The notes under the pieces: generated by a model
What the model was told of the DNA's origin: nothing
Database searches by the model: none
Seen by the model: the letters and a program-made list of their open reading frames with translations, nothing else
Origin: Effrenium voratum
Lineage: Eukaryota > Sar > Dinophyceae > Suessiales > Symbiodiniaceae
Reading direction: 5' to 3'
DNA length: 64,000 nt
Assembly (NCBI GenBank): GCA_963377175.1
Contig: CAUJNA010001610.1
Location: forward strand, 1 to 64,000
Made by a program: the position numbers and the translations under genes
Shown: positions 11,274 through 32,889 of the stretch, piece by piece
Layout of the letters: every line of letters begins with the position of its first letter
How positions within the stretch are numbered: position 1 is the stretch's first letter

Positions 11274-11622
11274 TGTCAAGAGACGGCAAGGTGACGTCCC
11301 GTGGGACGCTATGCACCGAACCCTCAAGCTGTAATACCAACCACGTAGAAAGGTGTATACGGACGATGCCGTTATAGCCGAACCCGTGTAAACGTTGGAA
11401 GGGAGAAGGAATGATAGTTACAACAGTGGTCCTGACAAATGCAGCGCAAGCGAAGTGTTTTCGCTCTCAATGCCGATCACGTATGTATGCAGTCACACAT
11501 CAGATCTTGAACCTCAATTGAGTCTTGAGCCAAATGGCGATCAATGGAACTTGGGAAGCAACACCAACAAGGACCTCAGAACAGCTACCCAATTTCGGCA
11601 CGGGGCCTAGAGGGTTTTAACA
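11274..11622 (-). repeat. copia 3' LTR
   Basis: In element sense it starts TGTTAAAACCCTC and ends TCTCTTGACA (TG..CA). It differs from the other LTR by about 8-9 positions, including a 1-bp indel near 11450. Contains the spliced-leader-like 15-mer at 11524-11538. Confidence 0.93.
11524..11538 (-). other. dinoflagellate spliced-leader-like sequence in the 3' LTR
   Basis: The minus strand reads GCCATTTGGCTCAAG. From memory, the 3' part of the conserved dinoflagellate spliced leader is GCCATTTTGGCTCAAG, so one T is missing. It is in the sense orientation of the element and is repeated in the other LTR. A chance match is possible, but the motif is long for a 64-kb window. Confidence 0.5.
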
Positions 11623-11632
11623 TCCCCCATTT
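11623..11632 (-). other. polypurine tract of the copia element
   Basis: The minus strand reads AAATGGGGGA directly against the TG of the 3' LTR, the expected place and composition for the plus-strand primer of an LTR retrotransposon. Confidence 0.8.
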
Positions 11633-12057: not shown

Positions 12058-12285
12058 AGCTAGCTGCTTTGACATATAGCTATGACAGGTAGCTAGCATG
12101 ACAAATAGATAGCTTTGACATATAGCTAGCTTGACAGATAGATAGCTTTCCAATAGGCTTGCATGACAGATAGATAGATTTGACATATAGCTAGCTTGAC
12201 AGATAGATAGCTTTCCAATAGGCTTGCATGACAGATAGATAGCTTTGACATATAGCCAACTTAACACATAGATAGCTTTTTTCGT
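12058..12285. repeat. 65-bp tandem repeat (GACATATAGCTAGC... type)
   Basis: Units of about 65 bp built from GACATATAGCTAGCTTGACAG, GATAGATAGCTTTCC and AATAGGCTTGCATGACAG repeat about three times with partial copies on both sides. It lies inside the copia element, in the 3' non-coding part. Confidence 0.85.
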
Positions 12286-14285: not shown

Positions 14286-15380
14286 TTGCAAGGTCAACTT
14301 TCGCAGCCGGGGCTCGAAAATCGCAACTTTTAAGTACGAAAGTAGTACGCGAAACCAACTTTTAAGTACGAAAGTAGTACGCAAAGTCCACTTTCGCAGC
14401 TGGGGCTCGAAAATCGCGACTTTTTAGTACGAAAGTAGTACGCGAAGTCCACTTTCGTAGCTGGGGCTCGAAAATCGCAACTTTTAACTACGAAAGTAGT
14501 ACGTGATCCAGTTTCGCAGCTGGGGCTCGAAAATCGCAACTTTTAAGTACGAAAGTAGTACGCGAAGTCAACTTTTGGGGATTGAACATCGCAACTTTTA
14601 AGTGCAGAGAAAGATGGGTAGATAGATAGATCAATAAACAGATATAGAGATAGCTAGAGAAATAGATAGAAAGAGATAGAGAAACAGAGATAGACAGAGA
14701 TAGAAAGATTTGTAGATAGATAGACAAATAACTAGCTAGATAGATAAAGAGATAGAGAGATAAATAAATAGAGAGGTAGATAGATAGATAGGAGATAGAG
14801 AGGTAGATAGATAGGTAGATCTATAGATAAATCGCAACTTTTAAGTACGAAAGTAGTACGCGAAGTCAACTTTCGCAGCTGGGGCTCGAAAATCGCGACT
14901 TTTTAGTACGAAAGTAGTACGCGAAGTCCACTTTCGTAGCTGGGGCTCGAAAATCGCAACTTTTAAGTACGAAACTAGTACGCGAAGTCAACTTTCGCAG
15001 CTGGGGCTTGAAAATCGCAACTTTTAAGTACGAAAGTAGTGCGCAAAGTCCACTTTCGCAGCCGGGGCTTGAAAATCGCAACTTTTAAGTACGAAAGTAG
15101 TACGTTTTCGCAGCTGGGGCTTGAAAATCGCAACTTTTAAGTACGAAAGTAGTGCGCAAAGTCCACTTTCGCAGCCGGGGCTTGGAAATCGCAACTTTTA
15201 AGTACGAAAGTAGTACGCAAAGTCCACTTTCGCAGCTGGGGCTCGAAAATCGCGACTTTTTAGTACGAAAGTAGTACGCGAAGTCCACTTTCGTAGCTGG
15301 GGCTCGAAAATCGCAACTTTTAAGTACGAAAGTAGTACGCAAAGTCAACTTTCGGGGATTGAACATCGCAACTTTTAAGT
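14286..15380. repeat. ~60-bp tandem repeat (AAAATCGCAACTTTTAAGTACG...) in two ~777-bp blocks
   Basis: The unit is about AATCGCAACTTTTAAGTACG then AAAGTAGTACGCGAAGTCCA then CTTTCGCAGCTGGGGCTCGA. The tail GGATTGAACATCGCAACTTT followed by a GATA microsatellite occurs at about 14578 and again at about 15355, so array plus microsatellite is itself duplicated with a period near 777 bp. Lies inside the copia element. Confidence 0.9.
14601..14830. repeat. GATA-type microsatellite, first copy
   Basis: Imperfect GATA/GAGATA tracts (for example GATAGATAGATCAATAAACA). A second, shorter copy lies at 15390-15530 and grades into AAAGAGAGAAAGAG. Confidence 0.9.
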
Positions 15381-15389
15381 GCAGAGAAA

Positions 15390-15530
15390 GATGGGTAGAT
15401 AGATAGATCAATAAACAGATGTAGAGATAGCTAGAGAGATAGATAGAAAGAGAGAGAAAGAGAAAGAGAAAGAGAAAGAGAAAGAGAGAAAGAGAGAAAG
15501 AGAGAAAAAGAGAGAGAGAAAGAGAAGCAA
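15390..15530. repeat. GATA / AAAGAG microsatellite, second copy
   Basis: Begins with the same GTGCAGAGAAAGATGGGTAG as the first copy, then becomes a purine-rich AAAGAG tract. The 260 bp between it and the stop of the KptA-like frame hold nothing I recognise. Confidence 0.88.
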
Positions 15531-15792
15531 GGGGCCAAGGACAGTTCTCCAAACTATAGTTGTTCACTGCTTTGAAACTTCCGCCCCCCGGCTCTGCCGG
15601 ACCTTACTTGTAGTTCCATCCATGAATATCCAGAGCGTCATAGTCATCGGAATATGTAACCATGTACACATCCATTCAACTTGGATATATGAAATCATAT
15701 CATAATGTAAAGTCGTTCCATCGCAATGGTGTTGATGAGACGCAAGCAACAGATGGGGACTAACCCACATCGTGCCGCAATCAGCATCTTCA

Positions 15793-18700
15793 CTACGCAT
15801 ACCGGTCCCCAATGGACAGTCTGTGAGTGCGTCGACGGAACTCCTCGTCCAAGTTCTTCTGGGCTTCTCGTGCCCGGACACACTTCTTGTTGTAGTCCTC
15901 TGGCAACCAGTGCCCTTTCCGAAGGCACCAATCCAGCAGGGGTGTGTCGCATTTGTTCGGGTCGATGGCCGAGATGATGGCGCTCACGTTGACCGTGTAA
16001 CCATGTTTGCCAAGGTTCAGGCCATCCCTCACGAATGATATATACTTACAGTTGAAAGCTAGTGCAAAACATCTGAAAATAATATCACCCACCGGGTGCA
16101 CTCGGTCCTTGACCAGGAGCTTCATTTCTTCCTTGGTGACATCGAGGATTCTCGCTGCAATCCACAGCTTGTAGAATGTGTAAAGTCCCTCGCATTTGCA
16201 CACCATCATACGAATATATTCGTCACGCTCCTCAACCGATCGGAAGGCTCTTGTCCGAACATTCTCCGACTGAGAAATCTTCGTTGTTGTTGATGGCAAT
16301 AGTATACCTTCCTGATCGTGCTCAGTGATGTTGGGGTACCTCTTGAAATCATTGTGGTAAGGGCAGCCCTCTCTCCCCTCGAGCTTGGCATTCATCGTTC
16401 TCTCCTCACCACCTTCAAACATCCCCCACATCTTGGACAGCTGGAGTGCGATAAATCCTGCCATGTACTGAGCCTCACGCGGCTCGTCAAGGCAGATCGC
16501 CATCCGTTGGGAACTTATAATGTCCCGTGACGCCAGATCGGTGTCGCGGTAATGCCAACCGCTGTCTTCTTCTTCTGACGCATAGCCGGATGTATATCCT
16601 TGTGTGTCCATGTCGTCATCATCTCCCGGAACTTCCTCCGCTTCGTCTTCATCCTCCTGTGCTGCCGCATCGTGGTTAGCTTCTTCCTGTGCACGCCTGG
16701 CATCTCCAGAGACGTTGGGGTTTTGGTTGTCCTCCTCGTCATCGGATTTGATGTGAATGTAGTATCTTCCGATGGAGATCAGTTGTGCTTCGCATTCCAG
16801 GCATAAGCAGAAGCAGGTGGGGATCGCGGTCGCACATGATGGACATATCCGGCACCTCAGTCCTTCCCATGTCTCGTCATTCAGGATGACGACTTTGCTG
16901 ATTTCGTCCCGGACCTCGTTGACCTGTGCATTGAACTCTTCCATCTTGTTGATTCGATAGAGTTCGCAGGCACGATTAACCATGTCAACGATGTAGTGCA
17001 GATTATCGGCACCTGTCTCAGTCTCCGGCATCCTCTCGCTGATCTTTGCGACGTTCTGGAGGAACATCACAGCCGACTCTTGGGAAGAGTTGACAAAGCC
17101 AGGGCAGATCTCGTTCTCCACACACTTCGAGTACGCCCTCTTGATGTCAGCGTACTCCAGGCGCTTCCCTCCGTTGCTTTTGCCAATCCAAATGGACTTG
17201 ACCTCATAGAACGGGATCACGTCAAAGACCATGAAAGTCCCATTAGCCGCGACTCCAGCCCCATACCGCGCGAGGGTTGCACTGGGAATATAGATGATCG
17301 CAATCGGATCCCCTCTCCTCACGTTCCGTAGCGTTGTCTTCGTCGCCACGTTCATCTCATCCCATGGAGCAAACGCCCCGAAGTGCAGTGCTAGCCTGTT
17401 GCCGCCATCGATTCCGCCGGGGACTAACCCACAGCGTACGATGCTTGGCAGGTTTTCCACATACGTCACATGGAATGCTCCTCCGAGAGAATCACCCATT
17501 CTTGCGGAATACCTATTCGCCAGTGCGGATGAGCTCATGAATCCAAAATCACTGTGACCGGTTGTGACTCGGATGCACCAAGGTCTGTACCATCCATCGC
17601 ATCTGTTGAACATCCTGTCGATGTCGTCCCGATCCACGCCAGCTTCGGTCATTTCCTCCCTGGCTGCCCTCGTATCGTTCGGGTTCATGATGCTCGGAAA
17701 CCTTGCTGCCAAAACCTGGAATCTCGATTTTCTGCTTCCGGATTCCTGCCACTTGATCACCTCCATGATGCCCATGTATCGTTTCGCTCTCGTGGTGTAT
17801 GGTGGGAATATGTCGTTGTTCCGGTCGTCAATGACAGCATCAATGTCGACCCATCCACCCTCGTCGCACCTGAAAGCACTTCCTCGGCAATTGCCGATCT
17901 TGTGTCGAAGGACTCTGCATAGGTCGTGAGATAGCTGGTTTGCTTGGTCCCTTGTAGTAAATACCGAGCGATCATCACCAATCCTGCATAGTGGAGCACC
18001 GTCGAAAGGAGCAATGCAGAAGTTGACACTCTTGCCAAGTTGCATCACGTCCACTTGCTCAAGGATTGCACCTTTGGGAAAGTATTTGGGGTCAACGATG
18101 GACGCATACGCCCATGGCAAGTGCACATCACTCACATCGCCATACTTCGGGATGTAGCACGGGATGGTGTCGCATCCCATCTCAAGCGTCTTCTTGAATG
18201 TCCTGCTGTCCCCGCACGGGTTGTAGGTGAGGTCGACGCCACCACATTGTAGCTCTCCTCCCTCAGCCGTGTCAGCCATCTCCACCAAATTAATGGTGTA
18301 GCTGTACATCTCAATTGTTTCTTTCCCTGCTTGTCCCCCTTTCTTTCTTTCCTTGGACGTTGATGAGGACGGTTCCTCCGTATCCCCCATGTCTTCATCA
18401 GATGAAACAGGGTCACTGCTGAGTAGCTCACGGAGCACCTTCATCGCCTTCTCATTTCCAGCAGCCTCCTCAATGTCCTTGCAGTCGCCGTCGTGGGCCA
18501 GGTTCGCGCACTTCTTACAGATCCCCATATCTCCCATGCACTTCTCCATTGACTCCAGGAATCCTAGTGCCGCTCTCCGCCCGTCGATCACTCGCTGCTT
18601 CTTGTCTTCCTTCTCAGTATTGGTTTGAGAACTTCGACTCGGGTCTGGTGCTTGACCAAGACCCTCATCTTCGCCCTCCGTGGCCTTTCTCTTGGAACCT

Positions 18701-21700
18701 TGTGCAGAGGGCTCGGTGATCAGGGATCGTGGATGTCTGGGCTTGACCTTGTTCATGATGTCAAGCACCTCCTTCGTGGGCACGCCGAGCTGTGCGGACG
18801 GTCTGTTCCGCTTTCTGTTCTGGCCCGTCGTGTGGGTCACGTTCCCAGCGAGGTGCCGCACTATTGACTGCTCGAACTCCCTCTTGATCTTCCATGCATC
18901 CTTCCACAGTGGCAGTTCGTGCTGGAAGTACGACATCACCTCAAAGAATCCCAACACCATCTCGACGACGTCTCCCAAGGATTCCTCGTTCGTGGTTTGT
19001 CCCAGGAGTTCATACATCGTTCCTTGGTCGAGCACACTCTTGATCCAGGACGAATATGCCACATTGCCAAGATCCTTGCCTATCAAGAAGATGGACATCC
19101 TCTCCTCGACTCCCTCGGAATTCTTGCACACGATCACATCCCGGGATGCGCACAATTGCTTCCCGTGACCGTTGTTGTAGAACTGCGCTGCTTGATCCAC
19201 AGTCATGCTCACGAATCCCACGTGAGAAAGCTCCTTCTTCAGCCTTGAATACACGAGCTCCCGTATGATCGTGATCATGGCCTGGATATTGTTGACGTCC
19301 ACCATGAGGTTTTGAAGGTCGGGGATTGCCACCACGCATTCCGCGAAGAGGCGCGTGTACATTTTCTTCCCCTCGATAGACATTGCAATACCGTTCGTGT
19401 CCGCGTTCCAGTTCGCGCAACAGTTCACGCAAGAAGAGGGATTGTACTTCGAATTCGGTCCGAGCACCTTCGACTTGCTCATCTGCATCTCTTTAGCGCA
19501 AAGTTCGCAGATAAACTTGCTGAGCTCCGTGACCGTATACCATCGAAGACGTTGATCACCGACATCGGCTTTCCCAAAAGCATCCTGCTCGCCGTGTCCT
19601 TCATCTTGCTGCTCTTGTTTCCTCTTCGACTGTGCAGTGAAGGTCGGCTTGTACTCGAATTTCACCTTCGATTCCTCCATGTTCTTCGGGATGTTGAATC
19701 GAAGGTCGGGCTCGTTTATGCACGTCCCCTCCAGCTCACACACAAACGCGTTGCTTGGTGCGACCGCATCGATGGATTTCTCAATCAGCAGTCGCTTCAG
19801 GAGGAAGTGTTGCAAGTTCGAGCTCCCAGGGATCTTGTAGTTCTTTCCTGTGAGCGCATGGACCACGCGCCACAGGCGATCGTTCTCGGTCACCAGCGCG
19901 CCTGCCGCCTTGCAGATCTCGCTAACCTTGTTGGCGATCGTCCCCAAGTCCCCTCTTCCACCATGGAAAGCAACATCGCGATTCACGCACACCACGACCA
20001 GGCCCTTGCATGTGTTGACGAGGTCAGATATCGCCTTCTGCAGGGAGTCGATGATGGGGTTGGCGGTCACCTGCCATCCGCATCCTCTCATGCACACCCA
20101 ATCATATAGCGACATCCAGATGTGCACCGACATTGGTGAGTCATCCATGTCTCGCCTCCGCCGTTCAGCGATGAGCTTATCCAGCTTCTGCAATCGGGAG
20201 ATGATATTCAACGTGTCGTTGGGTGAGGAGACTTGCTCACTCGACCCATAGTATGATCTCTCCTCGATGTTTGTCCATCCCTGTTCGTTGACCATCATCT
20301 GGAAGGTCTTCGTGCTCCCTTTCGAGTTGACGGCCCTCAGGGGCCAATCCAGGACCAAGAAGCTCTTCTTGTGGATCATCATGTCGCGAATCGTCGCCTC
20401 GCCAATGGGGCTCCTCTTCTGCCTATTGATAATCCGGTTCAACTGTCCAGGTGCGTTGTCCGGGTTCTTCTCCGCCTGAATCAACGCGTTGATGGCTTTG
20501 GCGCCCGGAAGGCGTCCAGTAATCAAGCATCCTGTTTGGGCACACAAGAAAGCATACAGCTGTAGCCATGCCGCATTTCCCTTCCCAACATAGGAAAGAA
20601 TGATCTTCTCCGCGCTGGTCTTCTCCTCGAAGTGCAATAGCGAAGAGGTCAGGCATCTCAGCATACACTCCCAATATGTTGCGTTCTTGCCTTCTGCAAG
20701 ACACGGCCCAAATACAGTTTGTATGATTGGGTACCCCGTATTGTTGTCTATGTTGAATTTCACATTGACAGTCGCTCCGCCCAAAGTGGTACCCCCTTCG
20801 AATGAAGTGTAGGTATCATGTCCAGCAGTTGGGTTGATAATTACCCATCTGTCGTCGTCACCGCCAGAGTTCATTCGGAAAATGGAGTCGATGATCTCGT
20901 TGTCGATCTTGACAGCATCGCTGGCTTGCGACCCCCCACTTGGAGCTCCCGGCTGGGGGACTGACCCACCAGCGGTTTGACTCCTTTGCCCGGAGCTTGA
21001 TGCCGACTTCTGCTGTCGCTCCGTCTTCCGCGGCGGCTCCGTCTTCGATGAGCCCATCACCCACCATGTCGGCTCTTCCCCAACCACGAAATCCTCGGGG
21101 TACTTCTCCAGTTCCCTCTCGATTTCATGAATCGTGCAGTATTTATTCTGGAAGAATTCGATCATGACGTCCTTCTCGGCCTTCTTCTCGATCTCCTTCA
21201 TCCAGCTTACCCACTTGCGCCGATCTTGGTTCTCAGCGGCCCTGTCAGCCGCGTGCGGTGCCAAACTGATGGAGTTGATGTTCATCGCAGGCAGCTTCGA
21301 CTCATAGATCATATCGATGCACCATAGGAAATCCCTGGCGTACTCAATCTCCCGGTAGAGATCGTTCAGCTCCCTTTTGTCTGGACGGAAATAAGCTGTA
21401 TACGACTGATCTTTGGAGTCCTTCTCACCGAGCAATGGCTGCAATCTCCTCATGATGAACGATACGCACATGAGCGAATTGACCGCCCCGATGCACGCAT
21501 CAGAGATGTCACTGGGGGTTGACCCACAGATCATCCAGCGCAATAGGTTGTTCTGGCTGGCATTCTCATCCCTCCTCAGTGCATATGCGAGGTTCTTCAT
21601 CGATGCCTGCAGCTCATTCTGGTAGACCAACCCAAGGTCCCAATTCTTCTGGTAGTCGTCCTTGGAACCACGACCGTAGGAGTCGATCTTGGGAGCCTTG

Positions 21701-24700
21701 ATCACGCTCAACGTGAACACTTTCCCCCAGTTTCGATCTCTGTATCTTGCGATTCTCCGGTCGTGCCTCTCAAACTCTGCAGTCGTCTGGAACTCCTCGG
21801 AGCTCCTCCACCTTCTCGATGACGATGCCCTAGATGACTCGTCGCTGATGAATTCTTTGTACACCTCCCCAACCGGGGTGTTCTGGTGGAATGCTGCTTT
21901 GAACGACCGTTCATCGTTGTCCTCGGCCACGCCTAGTGCGAGATCCCAGATGTTCGCGATTGATCTCAACATATCCGCCCCTTCCATGCAGTACTTGGTT
22001 ACGTTGAGCAACTCGGGGTTCTTCGCCAGCATCGTTGCCTCACCGCAAAGTTGGTTCAGCGCCGACACGATCTTCTTTCCCTTGCTGCAGAATTCCCTCC
22101 ATCCAAGCATACATTCGTCGGCAGAAAGCTGTCCGAAAACTTTGCTGATGAACTCTAAGGCAACCCTCATAGACTGCCCTTCACCTTTCATCATCCCGCG
22201 GCCCTTGGCAGAGTAGTACGCAGAGTATGCATAAATAGCGGGGACGCCGATGTCCTCGATCCACTTCACGCACATACCCAGGTCGCTGCTCATCTCCATC
22301 CTCTTGGGCATCCTCTTGCCTTCCTCGATGGCGTTCTTCACCAAATTTCCCAAGAAGATTGCTGCTTGCCTAGATTTCCCAACAGGCACGCAGAAGAACT
22401 CATTCGTATTGACGACATTCGGATTGGCAGTCATCTTGATGATATTCTCCAGAACCAGGAAAACCCAAAATAAGCAGCTGCAAATGAAGCCACGGAATTG
22501 TCCCAATATGATCCCAGCTTCAGATTGAGGTGACGAACTCGTCCAGCTCCTTCTTGAAGCTTGGGGTTCGGGACTGACCCAGCTCCCCGTATGCACCAGA
22601 GGTTCGGGACTGGCCCAGCACCTCGGTTGTGCAGTTGGGGTGGTGCAGATTTCGCTCGCAGTAGCTTGGTGCTTCCGCGATCTCCTTCGCGTAATGCAAG
22701 CAAGAGCGAGTTTCAACGGTGCCGGTTTGAGGCACCTTGCTCGAGCACGAAAACGGCGAAGGATCACACCCACAATTATTGACGTGTACAACTGGGTTTC
22801 TTTGGTTTCACGACCAGCACAAGGTCCATGCTCATGGTTTCCATTGCATTTCTTAGACAACGAGCCACCAAGTTCAAAGTTCCATGAGACAACTCTCCAT
22901 GGTTTCTTGATTGGCATGGGTTTCTTTGCATATCTTTGTTTCAAGCCATAGCGACACCCATCAAACTCGTGACTAGTCCCATCATGCACGACCTCATGCA
23001 GTCTCTCATCTTTCCAATAATCACAACTTCCAGGCAACTCAAACAAAATCGCAGCTCGTTTTGTCATGGCATGCCGTTTAATTTCAACGAACCGTTCAAA
23101 TAATCTCCAAAATTCTCTTTGTTTGGCCTCGATTTTCTCTGCGGTGTCAATGCCGCGAGTCTTGTTGAGGCGTGCCCATGATGATCCCCCCGTGCAAGGC
23201 CCGGCGAAGAACAACAAATCGGAAGGTTTGGTAAGCACATGTCTGGCGATTCTCCCCCCGTACTCGCTCAGTAAGTCATCAACCAGAGTTATGGTGACAA
23301 CCTGCGGCCCGTCATGGCGGGCAAGAGCAGTGAACCAGTTACGTGGTTCGGAACATGCCATCAGCACGATGGGCCGAGCCAAGTCAACACTGTAAAGAGT
23401 GACGACTGTGCGAGTTCTCATACCAGGAAGCGAGACATGAACAGGAGCGCGAAGCACACCACCGTCGTGTTTGACCATCGCGAGTTCAATACCCGGCGCT
23501 AACTGTGGCTTGTGCTTCACCGCAATGCGATACGGAACAAAACAACGACCAGGGACAAGCTGCTCGTGATTGATATGCAGACAACGCATGAGCAATTTCA
23601 ATCGGAGCAACGTTTCCAAAGCAAGGTCGTTAACACACTTCAACTCTATGCGCTCGTTCGACAGTTCTTCAACAAATGCGGCCAGCACGGACTGCATGTC
23701 AACATCCCCGGACCCGACGTGAATTGGTCGTGGTCGTGGAGACCGTTCCCGCGCCGGTGCAGCGACCGGTACGGGATGAAACTGCCAAACTGCGCGTTCA
23801 ACCCAACCATCAATTCGCACACATTGTAGCCCCGGGTCAACTCTATCCTCAACTTTGAGCCATGACCCATTCTTCAGAAACCAAGTGGAACGAAGCCACT
23901 TGCTCCCAAACGGTGTCATAACCGCGAGTGGAGGTTTCACACGCATCAATCTGGGTCCCTTGGCAACAACAACCGGATCATGTCCTTCATGCTCATGCAA
24001 TCCCTCTTTAGATGTTAATCCAGACCACCATAGGTCCGGGGGCATGATCGGTATGTGTGTGTACGGAAATGTTGGAACTCCGTCAACTGTCCCCGAAGCG
24101 GTCTGCATGGTCCCCTTTATGGGATCACACGTGGGTGTGAGCGCCTTGAGGGTATCCGGGTCAGACAGCAAGCTCGGGTCAAGTAGACCAATCTGCAAAC
24201 ATGCATGTTTCCATTTGCGCCCATCATTGAACGCCTTGGTGTAAATATCGGCCGCCATCCTGTCGGTGACCTCATACGCCAAGTACATGTAATCACGTGT
24301 GAACATCTCATGCATCCACGAAATGCTAACACCATGGCTTCTCTCAAGGTGGCGCATCGTGGGGTTCCTCCCCGATCGCACGACACCGATCATAGCCTTA
24401 TTATCGTCATAGAACACAAAGTTCGGTGACTTCTTGAGAATCCGCTCTACCAGCTTGAGAGCGGGCATACCCATCGATCTCATGGCAACGTCGGCCGCAA
24501 CAATCTCGGCCTCGGGAGTGGAGTGACTCACACAACCCTGTCTTTTAGAGCTGCCAGACAACGGAAACCGGGTATTAGGCCCTTGTATATTCAAGTGTCC
24601 ACCGGAGGTGGAACGCAGCGAGTCAATGCATCCCGCAAAGTCAGCGTCCGCATACAAGGCCAAGTGCACATCGTCCATAGGGTCTCCAACCCAACCGACC

Positions 24701-26223
24701 ATGCGCCAATGTTTGGTATGATGCACATAGCACATCAAGTGATGCAAACCCCGATCATCGGAGTCAGTCCACCTATGCACGTTCCGTGCTAGGCGATTCA
24801 CTTGCCGCAACAAATCGAAGCGAGCAATCCGCGCACCGTACAGCAACTTCATCAGTACGCTAGCGGCATGCGGAGCAAGGTGTCCACGCACGGGCTCCTT
24901 CATGGCCAACTCAGGAGTCCCTCCCCGTTGGTCCGGCACTGTGGCAGAACCGTCGGTGGGCACAAGATTGTTACACCAATTGCACACGACTGACGGCCCC
25001 TCTCTGGCAGGCTTCCGTGAGACGTGATTCTTTGTTTCTTCATGCAACTCAGGGGTGACAACCTTATTCAACTTCACGTCGCCCGCCACTTCAAGATAGC
25101 GGTCGACACAGGAACGTAGGAACTGTTCCATGTCATAGGTCACCGTTGTTACTCGGTGTCCGTTCCCGAGAGTGACGTTTCCCTTGCTTTGATTGCAACC
25201 AAGGTACATGTCAAGTCCAGTCTCGGGCTCAATCTTCAAACGTGTACGCAACATGCTCCACCCTTGGGCAAGGTTCTTCTGCGGCCCTGCCATTTTGAAG
25301 TCGTCGACATACACAACCAGAACAAGCTGGAGCTTTTCATGAATGTACACTGAAGGCCATTCTTCGCCGATGGGCTCAAAACCAACGGCACGCACCGACT
25401 CATCGCAGTGCTGCTCCCAAAATGTTCCCGCATCTGGGTGTCCGTACAGCGCCTTCCTCAACGGGACGACTGGTCTTCTGTACTTATCCCATTTGCATTC
25501 ACCTGGCACGGCCTCCGGTGGCAATTCAATCCAACACGGCGTGCCTCTCAAGGTGGCCTGTATATACGCCTGAACAGCGTCGGCCATCTGCACATCCCAG
25601 CCATCATGACAACCCAGAAAATCCGCCCAACGCGAGGCTTCAAATGAAGCAGGGGAGTTCCCCAAATCTTGAAACATCGCAGCCTCAAAGCTTTGGTTCT
25701 TCACTTGGTTCCCCAGCAACACGCCTCTACCCTTGAACTTCCTCTTAGGATCACCAACAGGCAACTGTGAGTGCTTTTCAACGCAAATGCCATGTGCGCG
25801 AGCCATGTGTATTTCTTCCCCCTTCGCTTTTGCTTCTCTGGCTACAGCGTCATATTCACGCACCGCGCCAAGATCGAAGACCCCCTGGTCGATTAATCCC
25901 GACCATTCTTTCTTCATTGATGCTAATGCATCAGGGTTGGTCAACATCTCTTTCCGGCCTACCGGCCTGGATACCAAAGCGTCGAAGAATCGTACAACTT
26001 TCACAGCTTTCTCTCTGTGCTGTATTCGCTCAGAAGTCACGCACGGCATCGATGGGTACTTCTTGGCTTCACCGTCTTCGCCTATCGCAGGCATTGCGAG
26101 TGGCACTTTTCCAGAAACTATCTCAGCAGACTCCTCCCATTCATACCAGGTGAGATCCGTCGATTCGTCGACCGATGGATCCGTCCCCGATGCTGTCTCA
26201 GCTTCGTCTTTATGACTCTCCAT
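15793..26223 (-). CDS. copia RT-RNase H fused in frame to a methyltransferase-like and a KptA-like region (3,476 aa)
   Basis: One uninterrupted frame. Residues ~100-470 are a copia RT (MADAVQAYIQATLRG, RKALYGHPDAG, catalytic VYVDDF near 304). Residues ~520-690 are RNase H (LALYADADFAG, STPEAEIVAAD, FYDDNKAMIG). Residues ~950-1170 are methyltransferase-like (LFFAGPCTGGSSWAR, LFELPGSCDYW), probably degenerate. A Ser/Pro-rich join at ~1180-1260 leads to MTANPNVVNTNEFF. The remaining ~2,200 residues hold a Cys cluster (CELCAKEMQ...CVNCC, ~2237), a Lys/Glu-rich segment, the Tpt1/KptA-like domain (~2763-3013), a second Cys cluster (~3125-3145), an acidic stretch and a C-terminal domain of unknown type. 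It overlaps the protease-integrase frame by 106 nt, implying frameshift expression or a frame error. RT and RNase H are certain, KptA is well supported, and the rest is unknown. Confidence 0.9.
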   Translation of the reverse strand: MESHKDEAETASGTDPSVDESTDLTWYEWEESAEIVSGKVPLAMPAIGEDGEAKKYPSMPCVTSERIQHREKAVKVVRFFDALVSRPVGRKEMLTNPDALASMKKEWSGLIDQGVFDLGAVREYDAVAREAKAKGEEIHMARAHGICVEKHSQLPVGDPKRKFKGRGVLLGNQVKNQSFEAAMFQDLGNSPASFEASRWADFLGCHDGWDVQMADAVQAYIQATLRGTPCWIELPPEAVPGECKWDKYRRPVVPLRKALYGHPDAGTFWEQHCDESVRAVGFEPIGEEWPSVYIHEKLQLVLVVYVDDFKMAGPQKNLAQGWSMLRTRLKIEPETGLDMYLGCNQSKGNVTLGNGHRVTTVTYDMEQFLRSCVDRYLEVAGDVKLNKVVTPELHEETKNHVSRKPAREGPSVVCNWCNNLVPTDGSATVPDQRGGTPELAMKEPVRGHLAPHAASVLMKLLYGARIARFDLLRQVNRLARNVHRWTDSDDRGLHHLMCYVHHTKHWRMVGWVGDPMDDVHLALYADADFAGCIDSLRSTSGGHLNIQGPNTRFPLSGSSKRQGCVSHSTPEAEIVAADVAMRSMGMPALKLVERILKKSPNFVFYDDNKAMIGVVRSGRNPTMRHLERSHGVSISWMHEMFTRDYMYLAYEVTDRMAADIYTKAFNDGRKWKHACLQIGLLDPSLLSDPDTLKALTPTCDPIKGTMQTASGTVDGVPTFPYTHIPIMPPDLWWSGLTSKEGLHEHEGHDPVVVAKGPRLMRVKPPLAVMTPFGSKWLRSTWFLKNGSWLKVEDRVDPGLQCVRIDGWVERAVWQFHPVPVAAPARERSPRPRPIHVGSGDVDMQSVLAAFVEELSNERIELKCVNDLALETLLRLKLLMRCLHINHEQLVPGRCFVPYRIAVKHKPQLAPGIELAMVKHDGGVLRAPVHVSLPGMRTRTVVTLYSVDLARPIVLMACSEPRNWFTALARHDGPQVVTITLVDDLLSEYGGRIARHVLTKPSDLLFFAGPCTGGSSWARLNKTRGIDTAEKIEAKQREFWRLFERFVEIKRHAMTKRAAILFELPGSCDYWKDERLHEVVHDGTSHEFDGCRYGLKQRYAKKPMPIKKPWRVVSWNFELGGSLSKKCNGNHEHGPCAGRETKETQLYTSIIVGVILRRFRARARCLKPAPLKLALACITRRRSRKHQATASEICTTPTAQPRCWASPEPLVHTGSWVSPEPQASRRSWTSSSPQSEAGIILGQFRGFICSCLFWVFLVLENIIKMTANPNVVNTNEFFCVPVGKSRQAAIFLGNLVKNAIEEGKRMPKRMEMSSDLGMCVKWIEDIGVPAIYAYSAYYSAKGRGMMKGEGQSMRVALEFISKVFGQLSADECMLGWREFCSKGKKIVSALNQLCGEATMLAKNPELLNVTKYCMEGADMLRSIANIWDLALGVAEDNDERSFKAAFHQNTPVGEVYKEFISDESSRASSSRRWRSSEEFQTTAEFERHDRRIARYRDRNWGKVFTLSVIKAPKIDSYGRGSKDDYQKNWDLGLVYQNELQASMKNLAYALRRDENASQNNLLRWMICGSTPSDISDACIGAVNSLMCVSFIMRRLQPLLGEKDSKDQSYTAYFRPDKRELNDLYREIEYARDFLWCIDMIYESKLPAMNINSISLAPHAADRAAENQDRRKWVSWMKEIEKKAEKDVMIEFFQNKYCTIHEIERELEKYPEDFVVGEEPTWWVMGSSKTEPPRKTERQQKSASSSGQRSQTAGGSVPQPGAPSGGSQASDAVKIDNEIIDSIFRMNSGGDDDRWVIINPTAGHDTYTSFEGGTTLGGATVNVKFNIDNNTGYPIIQTVFGPCLAEGKNATYWECMLRCLTSSLLHFEEKTSAEKIILSYVGKGNAAWLQLYAFLCAQTGCLITGRLPGAKAINALIQAEKNPDNAPGQLNRIINRQKRSPIGEATIRDMMIHKKSFLVLDWPLRAVNSKGSTKTFQMMVNEQGWTNIEERSYYGSSEQVSSPNDTLNIISRLQKLDKLIAERRRRDMDDSPMSVHIWMSLYDWVCMRGCGWQVTANPIIDSLQKAISDLVNTCKGLVVVCVNRDVAFHGGRGDLGTIANKVSEICKAAGALVTENDRLWRVVHALTGKNYKIPGSSNLQHFLLKRLLIEKSIDAVAPSNAFVCELEGTCINEPDLRFNIPKNMEESKVKFEYKPTFTAQSKRKQEQQDEGHGEQDAFGKADVGDQRLRWYTVTELSKFICELCAKEMQMSKSKVLGPNSKYNPSSCVNCCANWNADTNGIAMSIEGKKMYTRLFAECVVAIPDLQNLMVDVNNIQAMITIIRELVYSRLKKELSHVGFVSMTVDQAAQFYNNGHGKQLCASRDVIVCKNSEGVEERMSIFLIGKDLGNVAYSSWIKSVLDQGTMYELLGQTTNEESLGDVVEMVLGFFEVMSYFQHELPLWKDAWKIKREFEQSIVRHLAGNVTHTTGQNRKRNRPSAQLGVPTKEVLDIMNKVKPRHPRSLITEPSAQGSKRKATEGEDEGLGQAPDPSRSSQTNTEKEDKKQRVIDGRRAALGFLESMEKCMGDMGICKKCANLAHDGDCKDIEEAAGNEKAMKVLRELLSSDPVSSDEDMGDTEEPSSSTSKERKKGGQAGKETIEMYSYTINLVEMADTAEGGELQCGGVDLTYNPCGDSRTFKKTLEMGCDTIPCYIPKYGDVSDVHLPWAYASIVDPKYFPKGAILEQVDVMQLGKSVNFCIAPFDGAPLCRIGDDRSVFTTRDQANQLSHDLCRVLRHKIGNCRGSAFRCDEGGWVDIDAVIDDRNNDIFPPYTTRAKRYMGIMEVIKWQESGSRKSRFQVLAARFPSIMNPNDTRAAREEMTEAGVDRDDIDRMFNRCDGWYRPWCIRVTTGHSDFGFMSSSALANRYSARMGDSLGGAFHVTYVENLPSIVRCGLVPGGIDGGNRLALHFGAFAPWDEMNVATKTTLRNVRRGDPIAIIYIPSATLARYGAGVAANGTFMVFDVIPFYEVKSIWIGKSNGGKRLEYADIKRAYSKCVENEICPGFVNSSQESAVMFLQNVAKISERMPETETGADNLHYIVDMVNRACELYRINKMEEFNAQVNEVRDEISKVVILNDETWEGLRCRICPSCATAIPTCFCLCLECEAQLISIGRYYIHIKSDDEEDNQNPNVSGDARRAQEEANHDAAAQEDEDEAEEVPGDDDDMDTQGYTSGYASEEEDSGWHYRDTDLASRDIISSQRMAICLDEPREAQYMAGFIALQLSKMWGMFEGGEERTMNAKLEGREGCPYHNDFKRYPNITEHDQEGILLPSTTTKISQSENVRTRAFRSVEERDEYIRMMVCKCEGLYTFYKLWIAARILDVTKEEMKLLVKDRVHPVGDIIFRCFALAFNCKYISFVRDGLNLGKHGYTVNVSAIISAIDPNKCDTPLLDWCLRKGHWLPEDYNKKCVRAREAQKNLDEEFRRRTHRLSIGDRYA
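17185..17935 (-). other. Tpt1/KptA RNA 2'-phosphotransferase-like domain
   Basis: In order: LSHDLCRVLRHKIGN (the family Arg-His pair), DEGGWVDIDAVI (winged-helix signature), RFQVLA, CIRVTTGHSD (second Arg, matching IRxxQGHS), AFHVTYVENLPSIVRCGLVP (matching the family HGT...I...GL), LALHFGAF, RNVRRGDPIAIIYI (fourth Arg) and MVFDVIPFYEVKSIWIG. Known Tpt1/KptA enzymes remove an internal 2'-phosphate from spliced tRNA using NAD+, with an Arg-His-Arg-Arg catalytic set; all four positions are filled here. It is longer than the ~200-residue enzymes because of an insertion between the two lobes. Its role in a retrotransposon is unknown. NAD+-dependent RNA end processing or ADP-ribosylation are inferences. 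Confidence 0.75.
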
Positions 26224-29200
26224 GACTGATGCAACCGCCTTCGTCCAGTTTGGAGTCGACTTGATCGCTCCTCAGACTTGAACTTCCAGGCATAAATTAC
26301 CACCAGACACTCAAATTCTTTCTCAAGCTGAACGTTTCGTCTCATGACGTCTTGGGACTGTTTGGAATCCATGAGAACAACCACCCCGTCGACAGGATTA
26401 ACAACAATCCTGACCCATTCAAGCTCAGCCAAGTGCTTCCCATCCATTGGGTTCTTGATCTTTGATATGTTCTTCCGCAATCCCCAATTGTACTGCCATT
26501 CTATTCCACCCCAGCGGTTCCGAAGCATCGCTCGAATTCTCTTACCACCGGGCATCTGTAATGTCCGTGCCTCTGCCGGCGCGGAAATCTCAGACTCCTT
26601 ACTCTTGGGATCTTCCTCTTTCCTTTTGCCACCGCCCTTCACCTCGGCCTTCTCTTCCTTGGTGTAGTATTTACTCATCATCTTCCATTCTTCAGGAGTG
26701 AACTCTGGAGGTCTCGATGTCTTCATTAGCCTGAATCCGTCCTTCCCGACAGGATACGGTCTCCCGGCCTTGTCGATCTTAACCTCCTTGCCATCGTCGT
26801 TGACGTACGTGATACCATCCCCAGGTAGCCCAACTGACACGTGTGGAAGGTCGGACTTCGCAACCTTTTCATCGCCCTTAGGGTGTCCATCTCCTTTCCC
26901 TTTTGAGGAGCTCGGTCTAGCATCTTCTTCTCCTGCATGATCCCCCCGATCTCCGGCGATTACCTCCGGGCCATCGTCGAGCAGTAGACCAGCGATCTGA
27001 TCGACTTCATCGTCAAGCAGTCGCTTCTCGTCACTCTGCAACAATTCAGGCTCGTAGTCCTCATCCTCGATCAGGCGGTCACGTGCATCCAGACCGATTG
27101 CATCGATAGACATCTCTATTCCTTCCAAAGTCTCGTTGGCAACCTTGTACTTCTGTTGTATTGGGAATGTCAGAGGAGATTTCAGGATCATCCTCTCCGT
27201 CTGATGTGGCATTCTCAACCGAGGCGGAACCTTTGCCTTCTTGATGTTCAGCTCTGCACCCGCAAATGCAGTAAGTGCCCAAGCACGATACTTGTTTGCC
27301 CAATGCATACCGGTGCTCAACACATATCCAGCAAATATACCAGTTTCCCCTCTCGGCTCGAACTTCTCCCTCTTTCCCCCTCGTGCTTCGCTCGGCTTGA
27401 AGTCCACTAGCGCACCAAAAGGTATCTTCTCGCCCTTGAACTCCTCGCCATGCAGCCTCATCCATGCACTCGATCCGTTCACCTCTTCGATGTTCATGAG
27501 ATGGCACAGAGTGGTGATGGCCTGCACCCAATAACACGTGGGTAGACCGGCATGTACTAGACAAGCCGAAGTCTGGTCAATGATGAATTGATTTGTTCTT
27601 TCAGCAAGGGAATTGTTCTGCGGCCGTCCAGGCAGCGATAGGTCGTGGTTCAGCTTCAGCTCCACGCACGCATTGATCAGTTCCGGGCCGTCATCTGAAT
27701 ATACCTGCTTGATTTTCCTCCTCCCGCAGAAGTGCTTGATAGCCCTGACGACTGAGTCAGTGTCTCTTCTCGCGGTGGGATAAGCCATGATAATTCCGGT
27801 ATATATGTCCCGGATGATGAGCGCATACCTGCCTTCCACTTCATGATCTCCTGATGCCGTCACAAAGTCGAACGTCACCAGGTCACCGAACGTCTTCACT
27901 TCTCTTTTGAATGCTCCCGTTCGTGATCTGAAGTGTCTCATCTTTGCCTTGACGCATGATTCGCAGAAGGGATTTCGGTATCTGTGTGTAAGCAAATGAG
28001 CTATGGAGTTGGCGTCCTTCTTGAGGACTCCCACTTTCCTCTTTATTGATGATCCTTCGTACACGTCTACTTCGATTCCGGCATCTGGATCATCTTCATC
28101 AACCTCTTCCTCGTGAGCTTCGGCATCACCATGTCGATGCGGGACTGACCCAACATCTACAGGTATTTCCTCAGCCACGGGAGGCGGACGTACCGGACCG
28201 GCTCCTCCGGGTGGCCCGAAGTCGAATGCCCCGTCGTGGTGTTCGCCCTCGGCCTCTGCGGACTCACCGACAGCGGCGGGTGTGACGTCGTTCTCATCGT
28301 CACCTCCCTGATCTGCCTCGTCGTTCGTTACCATCGCCAATACTTCCGAAAAGTGCTCCTTGAGGTCGTCTATCGTAGGGCGATGCCTGTTACTCCGAAG
28401 TTTACCATCACTCACTAGGTACGGGATGTCGTCCTTGACCTGCAAGTGCACGAATCCCTGCTTTGGCGTAACCATGAAAGGTAGTTTACCAGGCATCCAG
28501 TGAAATGCATAACCCATCTTCATGCATCTCCTCCCCACTGACAATACCGTGGGTGTCTCATCCAATACATGCGGCTCGACAGTCTCGTCCAACTCGTCCA
28601 CGACTATCTTGGCCACATCAGATGTGGAAGTGGAACCATTCGCGGTCTGGAACACGATCTCGTCGTCATCTTTCACGATGTCGACACCCAGGCTCTTCGC
28701 CTTGGCTCTTCCGATGAGATCATGACCACATCCGGTGTCCATCAACCATTTCACCCGTTTGCTGATGCACGTTGACATGGCGAAAACGTTCTTCGGCATA
28801 CCATGCTGTTTCTTCCAGTCGACAGCCGATTCCTTGATCTCGTCCTTGTTCCGATCATACTCGAACATTATGCTGCTCTCCTTGGTCACCGGGAAGTAGT
28901 GCTTCTTATATATATCATCCACCACTTCTCTCAGTATCTTCGCACGTATCAATGATCGTTGGACTTGATAGGCTGATAATTCACGATGATCACTGCTTTT
29001 GAACTTCTTCTCGTCGACGTACACGTACTGATAAGGCTCATTCTCATTGTCCTCATAACCGTACCATTCCCCTTTTCGTTCCCATTGCCTTCTCTCGTCT
29101 TCGAGGTAGGTGATCTCCCCATTCTCGTCGACGTCGAGCACTTCCTTGAACCACACCATTTTCTCGGGGATCTCGGACTCGCCAGACCATCTCGATGATT

Positions 29201-29615
29201 CGCTCATCGCGTCGTCATCGTGCTCGTGGTAGACAGTCTCGGCTTCGTCCGGTTCGACCTGATCAACGTCCTTCTTGAAGCTTACCTTCCCTGCAGGAGC
29301 CGATTGCTTCAGGACTATCGCGGGCATTGCGATGGCCCTCCTCGCAATGGCAGGCGCTGCGGCTTTGGCGGCAGCCTTCGACTTGGCTTGCGCCTTGTCA
29401 TTTGACGTTGCTGGAGCTGAATTGTTCTTGATGAGCTCATGCCTATACTTGCAAGCGCTTCCCTTATCGCACTTCCCCTTCTGAAACGCGAAGCATGCTC
29501 CATCATCTCTCTTTGGTGACGATGATCTGGACTTGGATTTGCCCTTTCCTTTCCCCTTGGACATACTCTCCAACTTGTGCTCCGTCTTCTTGCTGTGGGA
29601 AAAAGTGCTTCGCAC
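26118..29615 (-). CDS. copia protease-integrase polyprotein segment
   Basis: About 1,165 codons. Residues ~40-60 are a CCCH-like finger (CFAFQKGKCDKGSACKYRH), flanked by Lys-rich and Ala-rich linkers. The aspartic protease site is WLMDTGCGHDLI near residue 287. The integrase has an HH-CC-type end (HRYRNPFCESC, ~550) and a core with Asp in VTFDFV (~580), Asp in VYSDDGPEL (~640) and Glu in NNSLAERTNQ (~675), the D-D-35-E pattern. The C-terminal part is acidic and hydrophilic. Another finger part (NPCWYHFKSAKGC) lies just upstream in a different frame at about 29620-29650, so gag to pol needs two frame changes. The protein cuts the polyprotein and inserts the cDNA. Confidence 0.9.
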   Translation of the reverse strand: MRSTFSHSKKTEHKLESMSKGKGKGKSKSRSSSPKRDDGACFAFQKGKCDKGSACKYRHELIKNNSAPATSNDKAQAKSKAAAKAAAPAIARRAIAMPAIVLKQSAPAGKVSFKKDVDQVEPDEAETVYHEHDDDAMSESSRWSGESEIPEKMVWFKEVLDVDENGEITYLEDERRQWERKGEWYGYEDNENEPYQYVYVDEKKFKSSDHRELSAYQVQRSLIRAKILREVVDDIYKKHYFPVTKESSIMFEYDRNKDEIKESAVDWKKQHGMPKNVFAMSTCISKRVKWLMDTGCGHDLIGRAKAKSLGVDIVKDDDEIVFQTANGSTSTSDVAKIVVDELDETVEPHVLDETPTVLSVGRRCMKMGYAFHWMPGKLPFMVTPKQGFVHLQVKDDIPYLVSDGKLRSNRHRPTIDDLKEHFSEVLAMVTNDEADQGGDDENDVTPAAVGESAEAEGEHHDGAFDFGPPGGAGPVRPPPVAEEIPVDVGSVPHRHGDAEAHEEEVDEDDPDAGIEVDVYEGSSIKRKVGVLKKDANSIAHLLTHRYRNPFCESCVKAKMRHFRSRTGAFKREVKTFGDLVTFDFVTASGDHEVEGRYALIIRDIYTGIIMAYPTARRDTDSVVRAIKHFCGRRKIKQVYSDDGPELINACVELKLNHDLSLPGRPQNNSLAERTNQFIIDQTSACLVHAGLPTCYWVQAITTLCHLMNIEEVNGSSAWMRLHGEEFKGEKIPFGALVDFKPSEARGGKREKFEPRGETGIFAGYVLSTGMHWANKYRAWALTAFAGAELNIKKAKVPPRLRMPHQTERMILKSPLTFPIQQKYKVANETLEGIEMSIDAIGLDARDRLIEDEDYEPELLQSDEKRLLDDEVDQIAGLLLDDGPEVIAGDRGDHAGEEDARPSSSKGKGDGHPKGDEKVAKSDLPHVSVGLPGDGITYVNDDGKEVKIDKAGRPYPVGKDGFRLMKTSRPPEFTPEEWKMMSKYYTKEEKAEVKGGGKRKEEDPKSKESEISAPAEARTLQMPGGKRIRAMLRNRWGGIEWQYNWGLRKNISKIKNPMDGKHLAELEWVRIVVNPVDGVVVLMDSKQSQDVMRRNVQLEKEFECLVVIYAWKFKSEERSSRLQTGRRRLHQSWRVIKTKLRQHRGRIHRSTNRRISPGMNGRSLLR

Positions 29616-29756: not shown

Positions 29757-32443
29757 TCAGGTCCCACCGGGTTTCCCCTTTCTGCCCTTGCCACCCTGGT
29801 TCTCCTGTTTGCCAGTTGCTGGAGCCGCATCCTTCCCGCCTGACTTCATCATCGACTTGACCGATTTCTCCTTCATGTCGAGCATCAGGTCTTCCCGATC
29901 TGCCTTGATCTGATAGTCGATCAACGCCAATAAGAATTCATACGTCTTCTGAGGATGCTTGTCCGGTAGTCTATGGTAGGCATTGAGGCCGAACTCCATC
30001 TTCTTGCTCCCTTTGATCTTCCTGTAAAGGATGTCTCTGAGAGCCAGCTTACTGGGTCTGTCCTCGCTCCTCATCTTCAGCAGCAAATCATACCATTTGT
30101 TCCTGAACATGACCAAGTTCTTGTCGCCAGGAAAGTCAAGGTTGAATAAGTGCTCGATGTGGTAGACAAGATCCGTTCTATCGGAAGTTCTGAATGATTG
30201 CATAACTAATGCCACCAACTCTCGTCCCTTCACGATCACCCCTTGTTGATGTCGTAGTTCAGAGTGTCGTGTAGCATCGAGGTATACGTCCTTGGCTTCG
30301 TCAGGTGCTTGTTTCAGCATGTTCTGCATGCCCATGGCCATCTTAATATCTATCGTAGCAAATCTGTCGCCACCTGAATCGCTAAGCAAATCCAGGTCTG
30401 GGTTCAACCCAAGAGCCTGCTCCAGCCATTTCGTCCATGCGTCGGTATCTGGATCTGCACATGCGCTCAGAACATTCATCAGCAGTTGCATCTTCCAGGT
30501 GTCAAGTTGATGGATCTTTGGCCAGGCCGGAATAGATACTCTCTCGGCCTCTTTCCTCGAGATTCTCGGTCGATCATTCTTGATCTCTCGGTTATCTCTC
30601 GATCTCCTTCGTCTCCTCCGTGTCCGATCGTCTTCTTCCTCTTCTTCTTCCTCGTCTTCCTCATCTCCTTCGTCGTCGTCATCCTCATCCTCATCATCGG
30701 GTGGATCATCCGGAGGTCCTCCTCCGCCACCAGCGAGGCTCAACTGACGTCGACCCGCTCCCTGCCCATTCCCATTGGGCGGGAATCCACCGTAATCCAA
30801 TGGGGGAGTAGTACCGTTGTTTCCCCCCCCATCACCACCACCAGTCGTAGTAGTGGATTGTGGGACATGCCCAACAACCCCTTGCATCTGGGATAGGTGT
30901 ACATCGATCATTGGATCACCGAAAGACGGAAAGAGGATCGAACCTGGCATCAGCGACGAATTAGGGATTTGATTTGAAGACGATGACGGGACTGACCCAG
31001 CCACCTTCTTGTCTATCCTATTTGAATTAGCCTGGGTTCCTCCCTCAGCGCGTTTCACTACTGCTCGTTCACGATGTCCATCTTTGCTGCTGGAGGCTTC
31101 CTGTGTCTCCAGCTTCTTGTGTGCACGTAGTTCCTCGTTGTCAGCATCGAGTTGGCGTACAAAACTCTCTTCTTGCTTGAGCGTCGCCTCTCTTTCTTTC
31201 AGTTGTCTCTGAAGCTCATGCATCTCCTCGAGGTACTCATCGTACATTCCCTTAGCTGTCAATCTCCAGTACTCAGCCTCCTTCGACTTCTCGTCCATCG
31301 TGCACCGTTCCTCTTGTTTCTCTTCTTTGACCTGGGCTAACTCCAAGATCGCATCCTGACGATGACCACCTTCGACAGCAATCATCTGGTCCTTCATCGA
31401 CACGTCGGACTCATACTGTTTGACGATCTCTTCTTTTTCGCGAAGCAAGCAATCTGCTCTCTTCGATTCCTGTTCCGCAAATACTGTAACGTCATTCAGC
31501 CTCGCCATCAGCTGTTCCCTGGAGTCCTCCAAAGAGTACGTCTCGGGGCGCTTGACGAGTGCATGCTCCAACTGTGATTTCAGACTTTGGACCATCTCCT
31601 CCTCGTTGAACTTCTCGATAGATGTAGAAGATTCTATGCCTCTGATCTGTTGCTGATAAACTGATATCTGTTGTGAAGCCTCACGGTGTATCTGATTTGC
31701 ACGTATAGCTGATTCCTGCGCGGCCGACTTCTCGCTTGCCATGTAGGATTTCATCAATGCAATCTCCCGCTTCTGCTCCATGATAGTTCCTTCAGCTTGC
31801 CTCATCTGTTGCATTATAATATTCGACTCCATGTCTTTCTTCTCCCCGTACTGAAATGCGTTCATTTCCACCTTGCGCATCTGTTGGGCTTCTTCCTCAA
31901 ACTTGCGCCATGCCTCAGCCATGTGGTGTTGGTGGTGACTCACTAGATGTCCCGACTGCTTGCTGGCAATCTCGCATCGTCTTTCCAGCTCCTGGATCCG
32001 GATGGTGCTTCCATAGTCTTCTTGGTTAAGATTCGCCATTGCTGCCGACATTTCATCAAGTGTCTTCTGATATTCCCCGATCTCCACCTCCATCTTATTC
32101 TTCTCTTTGATCACGGCGCGAAAATCTGCACTGGTGGGTGATTTTGACTCCCACCCTTCGATGTCGATCTCACGCCCTTCTGCGACGTCCGTGGTGTCGC
32201 AGGCGAAGATGATGATCTTCTCGGTGGGGATTCTCTTTTCTTCGACTCCTGATGAACATCGATCTGCTTCCATGATCTTGTGGGAGTAGATATGTCGCTG
32301 AATAGCGCGGAACCTCCGCTCCCAGGTTCATCCTGTGAATCTGCAACCATATCCATCACCGCAGGAAGAGCCATCAATCCATTGGATCCCTCTGAGCTGC
32401 TGTTCCCAAAAGTTGCAGTACTTGGGCTCGCCGAAGACGCCAT
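29757..32443 (-). CDS. copia gag with long coiled coil
   Basis: The first ATG after the 5' LTR is at 32443 (MASSASPSTATFGNSSS). The signal shifts frame near 32270-32290 and then runs 838 codons from 32273. Most of the first 400 residues are charged heptad-like coiled coil (KEKNKMEVEIGEYQKTLDEM). A Gly/Pro-rich segment and a long Asp/Glu run follow (about 30610-30700), then an Arg-rich stretch and a gag capsid-like helical domain (PAWPKIHQLDTWKMQLL through YEFLLALIDYQIKADREDL). It ends in a Lys/Gly-rich basic tail. It would form the particle that packages the element RNA. The long coiled coil is unusual for copia gag, which is often about 300-400 residues in total. Confidence 0.85.
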
Positions 32444-32541
32444 TGTACTGTGTAGGTTATCGTTCCTTTATTGTCCCTGTACCCGCAATAAACCAGCTGT
32501 CTCCCAGTCCAGTGTAGAGCTTGTAGTTACGGCTGATAACC

Positions 32542-32889
32542 TGTCAAGAGACGGCAAGGTGACGTCCCGTGGGACGCTATGCACCGAACCCTCAAGCTGT
32601 AATACCAACCACGTAGAAAGGTGTATACGGACGATGCCGTTATAGCCGAACCCGTGTAAACGTTGTAAGGGAGAAGGAATGATAGTTACAACAGTGGTCC
32701 TGACCAATGCAGCGCAAGCAGTTGTTTTCGCTCTTAATGCCGATCACGTAGGTATGCAGTCACACATCAGATCTTGAACCTCAATTGTGTCTTGAGCCAA
32801 ATGGCGATCAATGGAACTTGGGAAGCAACACCAACAAGGACCTCAGAACAGCTACCCAATTTCGGCACGGGGCCTAGAGGGTTTTAACA
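32542..32889 (-). repeat. copia 5' LTR
   Basis: 348 bp, TG..CA ends in element orientation, about 97-98 percent identical to the LTR at 11274-11622. The gag ATG follows 98 bp downstream. Confidence 0.93.
32791..32805 (-). other. dinoflagellate spliced-leader-like sequence in the 5' LTR
   Basis: The same 15-mer as at 11524-11538 (minus strand GCCATTTGGCTCAAG), about 85 bp inside the upstream edge of the LTR and pointing toward gag. Confidence 0.5.

Follow-up and report, generated by a model that had tools for sequence, protein, structure and literature searches.

A Ty1/copia element with an extended pol reading frame

The window analyzed here is a stretch of 64,000 nucleotides (positions 1 to 64,000 of contig CAUJNA010001610.1) from the dinoflagellate Effrenium voratum. 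It contains a long terminal repeat (LTR) retrotransposon of 21,616 bp, which lies on the minus strand together with all of its LTRs, open reading frames (ORFs) and domains described below, and whose longest ORF carries a domain of the Tpt1/KptA RNA 2'-phosphotransferase family downstream of the reverse transcriptase. The element is a Ty1/copia LTR retrotransposon, with an RVT_2 match above the Pfam cut-off, paired LTRs and a 5-bp target duplication. An earlier note made from the same sequence had described a 3,476-codon frame joining copia reverse transcriptase and RNase H to a KptA-like domain. That ORF (15793-26223) is real and uninterrupted over 10.4 kb, and its copia-type reverse transcriptase is matched by RVT_2 at residues 162-350 (25174..25740) with 34.8 bits against a cut-off of 31.6. 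The RNase H can be spotted by eye in YADADFAG, which we take to be a motif of that enzyme, and had no Pfam match in the 3476-amino acid (aa) ORF.

The reverse transcriptase/RNase H region is followed in the same ORF (15793..26223) by a pol C-terminal region, a linker and a KptA-bearing extension. The pol C-terminal region (residues ~951-1161; 22741-23373; FAGPCTGGSSWARLN...) is well conserved and has no Pfam match; its identity as a DNA methyltransferase (DNMT), considered from a PC motif seen by eye, was dropped, as no Pfam match was found at E ≤ 5. The linker (residues 1165-1263; 22435..22731) is open in frame, evolves fast and bears no sign of constraint. The extension comprises residues 1264-3476 and the stop codon (15793..22434), with Met1264 as a possible separate start. 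Outside the KptA domain, the extension gave no significant Pfam match at the profile level, where known folds may still exist.

The Tpt1/KptA domain

The Pfam family PTS_2-RNA (PF01885, Tpt1/KptA) matches residues 2761-2973 (17305..17943), scoring 30.7 bits in a scan of the whole ORF and 35.3 bits (E 1.5e-8) with a 341-aa fragment, against a cut-off of 26. The motifs in which the earlier note had seen the catalytic positions, VLRHK, CIRVTTGHSD and RNVRRGDP, begin at residues 2771, 2883 and 2966, respectively. The corresponding tetrad consists of Arg2773-His2774 (17902..17907), Arg2885 in CIRV (17569..17571) and Arg2969 in RRGDP (17317..17319), and in the profile alignment these four residues are in register with the Arg-His-Arg-Arg tetrad of the Tpt1/KptA family. 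A MAFFT alignment placed Arg2966, not Arg2969, in the fourth tetrad column.

Residues 2747-3012 (17188..17985) were modelled by AlphaFold as a Tpt1/KptA fold. This second of two models was built on an alignment of 27 rows, including 10 relatives and 16 KptA loci, and shows a two-lobe fold, with an RNA lobe and an NAD+ lobe, at a mean predicted local distance difference test (pLDDT) score of 64.0. The 19 best Foldseek matches of the model are Tpt1/KptA proteins, and DarT and PARPs rank lower. As modelled, the segment is a complete Tpt1/KptA domain with a winged-helix RNA lobe and an NAD+ lobe. The structural match that the earlier note had called for was thereby obtained, on a model whose alignment contained KptA sequences.

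Relatives and copies of the element

A search of proteins from ENA contigs with a 701-aa query covering the KptA region returned 55 proteins at E ≤ 0.01 among 2382 candidates, with an identity of at least 56%; some of these overlap the query region at its edge only. A PF01885 label had been precomputed for 19 of the 55. Alignment A2 took in 47 of them, and 25 of its 48 rows (window included) match PF01885 at E ≤ 0.01. Alignment A3, with six fragments of 21-22% identity, was judged misaligned and set aside. A second search, centred on the junction of pol and extension, screened 3306 candidates and returned 37 proteins, of which one was known from the KptA search. Both searches admitted proteins of ~386-1227 aa only. 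A first protein search with residues 2640-3060 gave no significant match among 1341 candidates of ~1912-6083 aa. Because the 701-aa query found 55 proteins, this null result indicates the lack of a long intact relative in that database rather than the absence of the domain. Scans of viral contigs with the whole ORF, the KptA part and the distant family gave no relative, and PHROGs returned nothing for the KptA piece.

Among the 91 relatives collected, 15 lead from pol across the linker into the extension, 8 stop near the linker, and 13 begin in or near it. Seven of these 13 start exactly at Met1264, and another (P0068) begins at residue 1151 and also crosses the linker. Five of the 15 crossing ORFs are distant (P0075, P0080, P0083, P0086 and P0087; 34-47% identity overall), and the start of the extension is recognizable in one distant relative at 29% identity (pairwise E 1e-32). 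The downstream region is therefore not confined to this copy, the junction being common to others, and the domain belongs to the mobile element as the earlier note had proposed, since it lies between the LTRs and occurs in many copies. An independent sign that the extension is part of the element is P0072, in which an N-terminal part of gag (residues 1-291, by eye) is joined to the start of the extension. The copia relative P0090, from JGI, stops ~20 residues past the pol C-terminal region, where it is 44% identical; a related copia ORF can thus lack the fused extension.

P0053, P0072 and P0084 are internally deleted, and the few bases shared at their joins fit template switching or short-homology deletion, not splicing. 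The P0072 join permits a 2-nt overlap (TC) and has no AG acceptor, so that splicing was rejected as its origin, and the P0053 join shares TGAAC (in window codons); both therefore look like deletions.

Probable selection on the KptA region

The tetrad is kept in most relatives that cover it: Arg2773 in 27 of 31 (two Ala, two gaps), His2774 in 28 of 31 (Gly, Glu and one gap), Arg2885 in 35 of 37 (two gaps) and Arg2969 in 39 of 43 (three gaps, one Lys). Arg2970, next to Arg2969, is kept in only 5 of 42. The two relatives with Ala at position 2773, P0041 and P0043, have locally unrelated sequence there, and P0041 appears to be frameshifted.

We compared the observed amino acid replacements with random single-base changes of the window codons, keeping, for each region, only relatives with at least 50 covered residues and a mismatch no higher than the limit set (0.25, 0.45 or 0.60); the first run additionally required 5 replacements. 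With kappa 2 and a limit of 0.45, replacements were more conservative than neutral in the KptA region (n = 263, 50 relatives, z 6.7), the N-terminal part of the extension (n = 278, 24 relatives, z 7.6), its C-terminal part (n = 439, 37 relatives, z 9.8) and the pol C-terminal region (n = 246, 21 relatives, z 6.8). Those in the linker equalled the neutral expectation (n = 58, 5 relatives, z 0.0). When kappa was varied from 1 to 8 and the limit from 0.25 to 0.60, z ranged from -0.7 to 1.2 for the linker and from 4.7 to 10.3 for the other regions; these values are approximate and not exact probabilities, the relatives lack independence, and the linker contributes a small sample. In addition, the 10.4-kb frame contains no stop codon, although 4.2 should have arisen after insertion (1.7 to 8.6, given the range of LTR counts; kappa 2).

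Organization of the element and its neighborhood

The 5' LTR (32542..32889) and the 3' LTR (11274..11622) have TG..CA ends and are identical in 341 of 349 alignment columns, with 7 substitutions and 1 indel. The duplication GGGCA, read directly from the sequence without strand assignment, occurs at both outer flanks (11269-11273, left, and 32890-32894, right). The earlier note had the domain enclosed by LTRs, target duplication and polypurine tract; the LTRs and GGGCA stand, and the tract adjoining the 3' LTR (AAATGGGGGA; 11623..11632) is short and weak. In element sense, the 5' LTR is directly followed by a candidate primer-binding site (GGTTATCAGCCG; 32530..32541), and then by an 838-aa ORF in the gag position (29757..32273), for which Pfam gave no match. 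Next comes a protease-like and integrase-like ORF (26118..29615) in a frame other than that of the long reverse transcriptase ORF after it. Both of its Pfam matches are below threshold (protease 22.9 bits, cut-off 24.3; integrase rve 20.3 bits, cut-off 32.6), and the weak integrase match upstream of the reverse transcriptase follows the copia order. The two ORFs overlap at 26118-26300 with a -1 shift, by programmed frameshifting or decay. Tandem arrays with 41-bp, 61-bp and ~300-bp units and GATA-like repeats occupy ~3.5 kb (12000-15550), most of the distance from the last ORF to the 3' LTR.

Both LTRs contain, in element sense, a 15-nt spliced-leader-like stretch (GCCATTTGGCTCAAG; 11524..11538 in the 3' LTR and 32791..32805 in the 5' LTR), which differs by one deletion from the last 16 nt of what we take to be the DinoSL leader. 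The stretch was spotted by eye prior to the statistical test, in which 0 of 3000 first-order resampled LTRs lay as near as 1 edit to the DinoSL end and 1 of 3000 as near as 2. The 21-nt leader (≤3 mismatches) and its 16-nt part (≤2 mismatches) were not found anywhere in the 64-kb window. On the sequence evidence, a dinoflagellate host is highly probable. GCCATTTGGCTCAAG lies ~85 nt into each LTR, as if the element RNA started with or encoded its own leader. Set against the sequences that we presume for both, the candidate primer-binding site GGTTATCAGCCG matches the complement of the initiator Met tRNA anticodon region in 10 of 12 positions and the fly copia site in 9 of 12. Such a resemblance to the copia site in the anticodon loop would imply that a tRNA half serves as primer.

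Adjoining the left LTR, ORFs at 5789-11218 (minus strand) match RVT_1 and RNase H above the cut-offs and an endonuclease below, and the copia element seems to be inserted in or beside a long interspersed nuclear element (LINE). Elsewhere in the window, a 229-nt direct repeat (36727-36955 and 44559-44787; 99% identical, 7.8 kb apart) encloses a weak phage-integrase-like ORF below the cut-off (37792-38976) and possibly marks a second, different element. A 593-aa ORF at 58594-60375 (minus strand) matches Endonuclease_7 marginally above the cut-off (24.5 bits vs. 23.6).

Interpretation and alternative explanations

We favor, with moderate confidence, the interpretation that a Ty1/copia family gained a long coding region downstream of pol with a complete Tpt1/KptA domain, which purifying selection then preserved as the family multiplied. 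Because the relatives mostly keep the KptA active site, the element probably uses the domain. The domain would be an active NAD+-dependent enzyme acting on phosphorylated RNA or cDNA ends in the replication of the element. It might strip 2'-phosphates, arising from cyclic-phosphate opening and ligation, that would otherwise stop the reverse transcriptase, or it might add ADP-ribose to 5'-phosphate ends. The targets suggested in the earlier note, namely the element's RNA, tRNA primers or RNA repair by the host, are likewise hypothetical. Both activities occur in the Tpt1 family, where the 2'-phosphate attacks NAD+ and ADP-ribose cyclic phosphate is then released (excerpt of PMC6333775), and where 5'-phosphate ends are ADP-ribosylated (excerpt of PMC6582358). 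A more specific scenario, which we regard as speculative and rather improbable, is that the element is primed by half a tRNA, cleaved within the anticodon stem-loop, whose cut end would need healing, and that its own Tpt1/KptA, tethered to the reverse transcriptase, makes the 2'-phosphorylated end extendable or 2'-phosphate scars in the template readable. If true, this would make it a retroelement that supplies its own healing of RNA ends.

Several observations weigh against the favored interpretation. The second AlphaFold model leaned on an alignment in which 16 of 27 rows were KptA sequences, and the first model (residues 2680-3476; 48 rows without known KptAs) reached a mean pLDDT of only 33.3 and was discarded. 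The NCBIfam KptA equivalogs scored only 15.6 bits against a cut-off of 239, and PDB sequence searches returned no KptA, their one match being unrelated (E 1.3). In the NAD+ lobe, HVT stands where the family has HGT, Arg2773 and Arg2969 are lost in some relatives, and the stop-codon expectation is built on 7 LTR substitutions, with P 0.19 at its low end (kappa 2). The low NCBIfam score and the PDB result make the domain a remote relative; by sequence, it is a family-level relative and not an ortholog of the bacterial-type KptA.

The product may be either one pol-KptA polyprotein or a separate protein from Met1264, and the two carry about equal weight. On the second account, to which we give an even chance, the KptA region would form a gene of its own in the place that env has in retroviruses. 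It would be read from Met1264 on a hypothetical subgenomic RNA, trans-spliced or of another kind, and the continuity of the frame would be incidental. Consistent with this, seven relatives have ORFs beginning exactly at Met1264, the linker replacements fit the neutral expectation, the chance of an open 99-codon linker at this composition is ~5% in this copy, and third-position GC is higher past the linker (0.47-0.64 per 100 codons in residues 1-1100; 0.52-0.78, mean ~0.67, from 1301 on). Of the 14 relatives that offer 60 or more residues on each side, 9 also show lower identity in the linker than in the extension at P < 0.01; the exceptions are P0058, P0075, P0080, P0083 and P0087. However, this ORF and 15 others from pol to the extension, the five distant ones included, have an open linker frame, though the copies compared were found as ORFs (an ascertainment effect), and the Met1264 column is mixed in four distant rows (Met in P0083 and P0087, Ile in P0075, Thr in P0080). 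The fusion in frame described in the earlier note thus holds for the open frame, and the unconstrained linker and the ORFs starting at Met1264 speak against it.

Other explanations concern the role of the domain. An ADP-ribosyltransferase effector directed against host proteins or RNA, for example blunting silencing or RNA surveillance, would suit the NAD+-lobe fold, which is common to protein- and DNA-modifying ADP-ribosyltransferases such as the lower-ranking DarT and PARPs. The tetrad residues of Tpt1 hold RNA phosphates. Here the RNA lobe and all four of these residues are kept, although an enzyme acting on proteins could do without them, and the 19 best Foldseek matches are Tpt1/KptA, so that we consider such an effector unlikely. 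The lack of long intact relatives in the search admitting ~1912-6083 aa would fit a host KptA gene captured once and drifting without function, but the many copies, replacements as conservative as those in pol, the kept tetrad and the uninterrupted 10.4-kb frame make a decayed or accidental passenger very improbable. Scarcely credible is an assembly artefact, or a nested insertion of an unrelated gene into one copia copy, which is contradicted by the identical pol-extension junction in 15 other ORFs and by the gag-extension join of P0072.

Comparison with known systems

Retrotransposons rarely keep extra enzymes, and each one kept marks a step in conflict or cooperation with the host. A KptA kept by a copia family would tie reverse transcription to RNA repair or to ADP-ribosylation of RNA ends, and the biological role of RNA 2'-phosphate and ADP-ribosyl enzymes beyond tRNA splicing is still unsettled. 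In searches of the open-licence PMC literature, no report came up that combines Tpt1, KptA or PF01885 with a retrotransposon, transposable element, dinoflagellate or Symbiodinium, in agreement with the earlier note, which knew of no such retrotransposon; PMC4053983, in its part seen here, merely tabulates the family PF01885. The domain resembles Tpt1/KptA/TRPT1 (PF01885; PDB 7yw2, 7yw3, 6e3a and 8tg3) in its two-lobe modelled fold, its Arg-His-Arg-Arg tetrad and its K-x-R-F and GHS motifs. It differs in having HVT in place of HGT, in its low identity, in being embedded in a 2,200-aa retrotransposon region, and in the 112 residues from Arg2773 to Arg2885, compared to 59 between the equivalents in E. 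coli KptA.

Going by excerpts of the sources, related architectures are known with other cargo. The elements of PMC7264820 are alike in the position and orientation of the extension; here, in contrast, its recognized part is an enzyme domain instead of a transmembrane envelope protein. In the Symbiodinium DIRS and LINE elements and the K. nitens Gypsy elements with cytosine methyltransferases (PMC5890265), a nucleic-acid enzyme was likewise captured, in some cases inside Pol, but it serves DNA methylation and is not KptA; the Symbiodinium Copia elements in that excerpt are without any DNMT domain. All 15 extra domains recorded in a survey of 121 angiosperm genomes were reported to sit in elements of Gypsy type, and those named in the excerpt do not include PTS_2-RNA (PMC9289625). 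From the same source, orchid Ty3/Gypsy elements with an ORF for an AlkB N6-methyladenosine (m6A) demethylase share with the E. voratum element the large LTR format (25 kb in the orchid case), an extra RNA-modifying enzyme and many copies, whereas they differ in being Gypsy, in carrying the enzyme as a separate ORF and in its chemistry, that of an oxidative demethylase.
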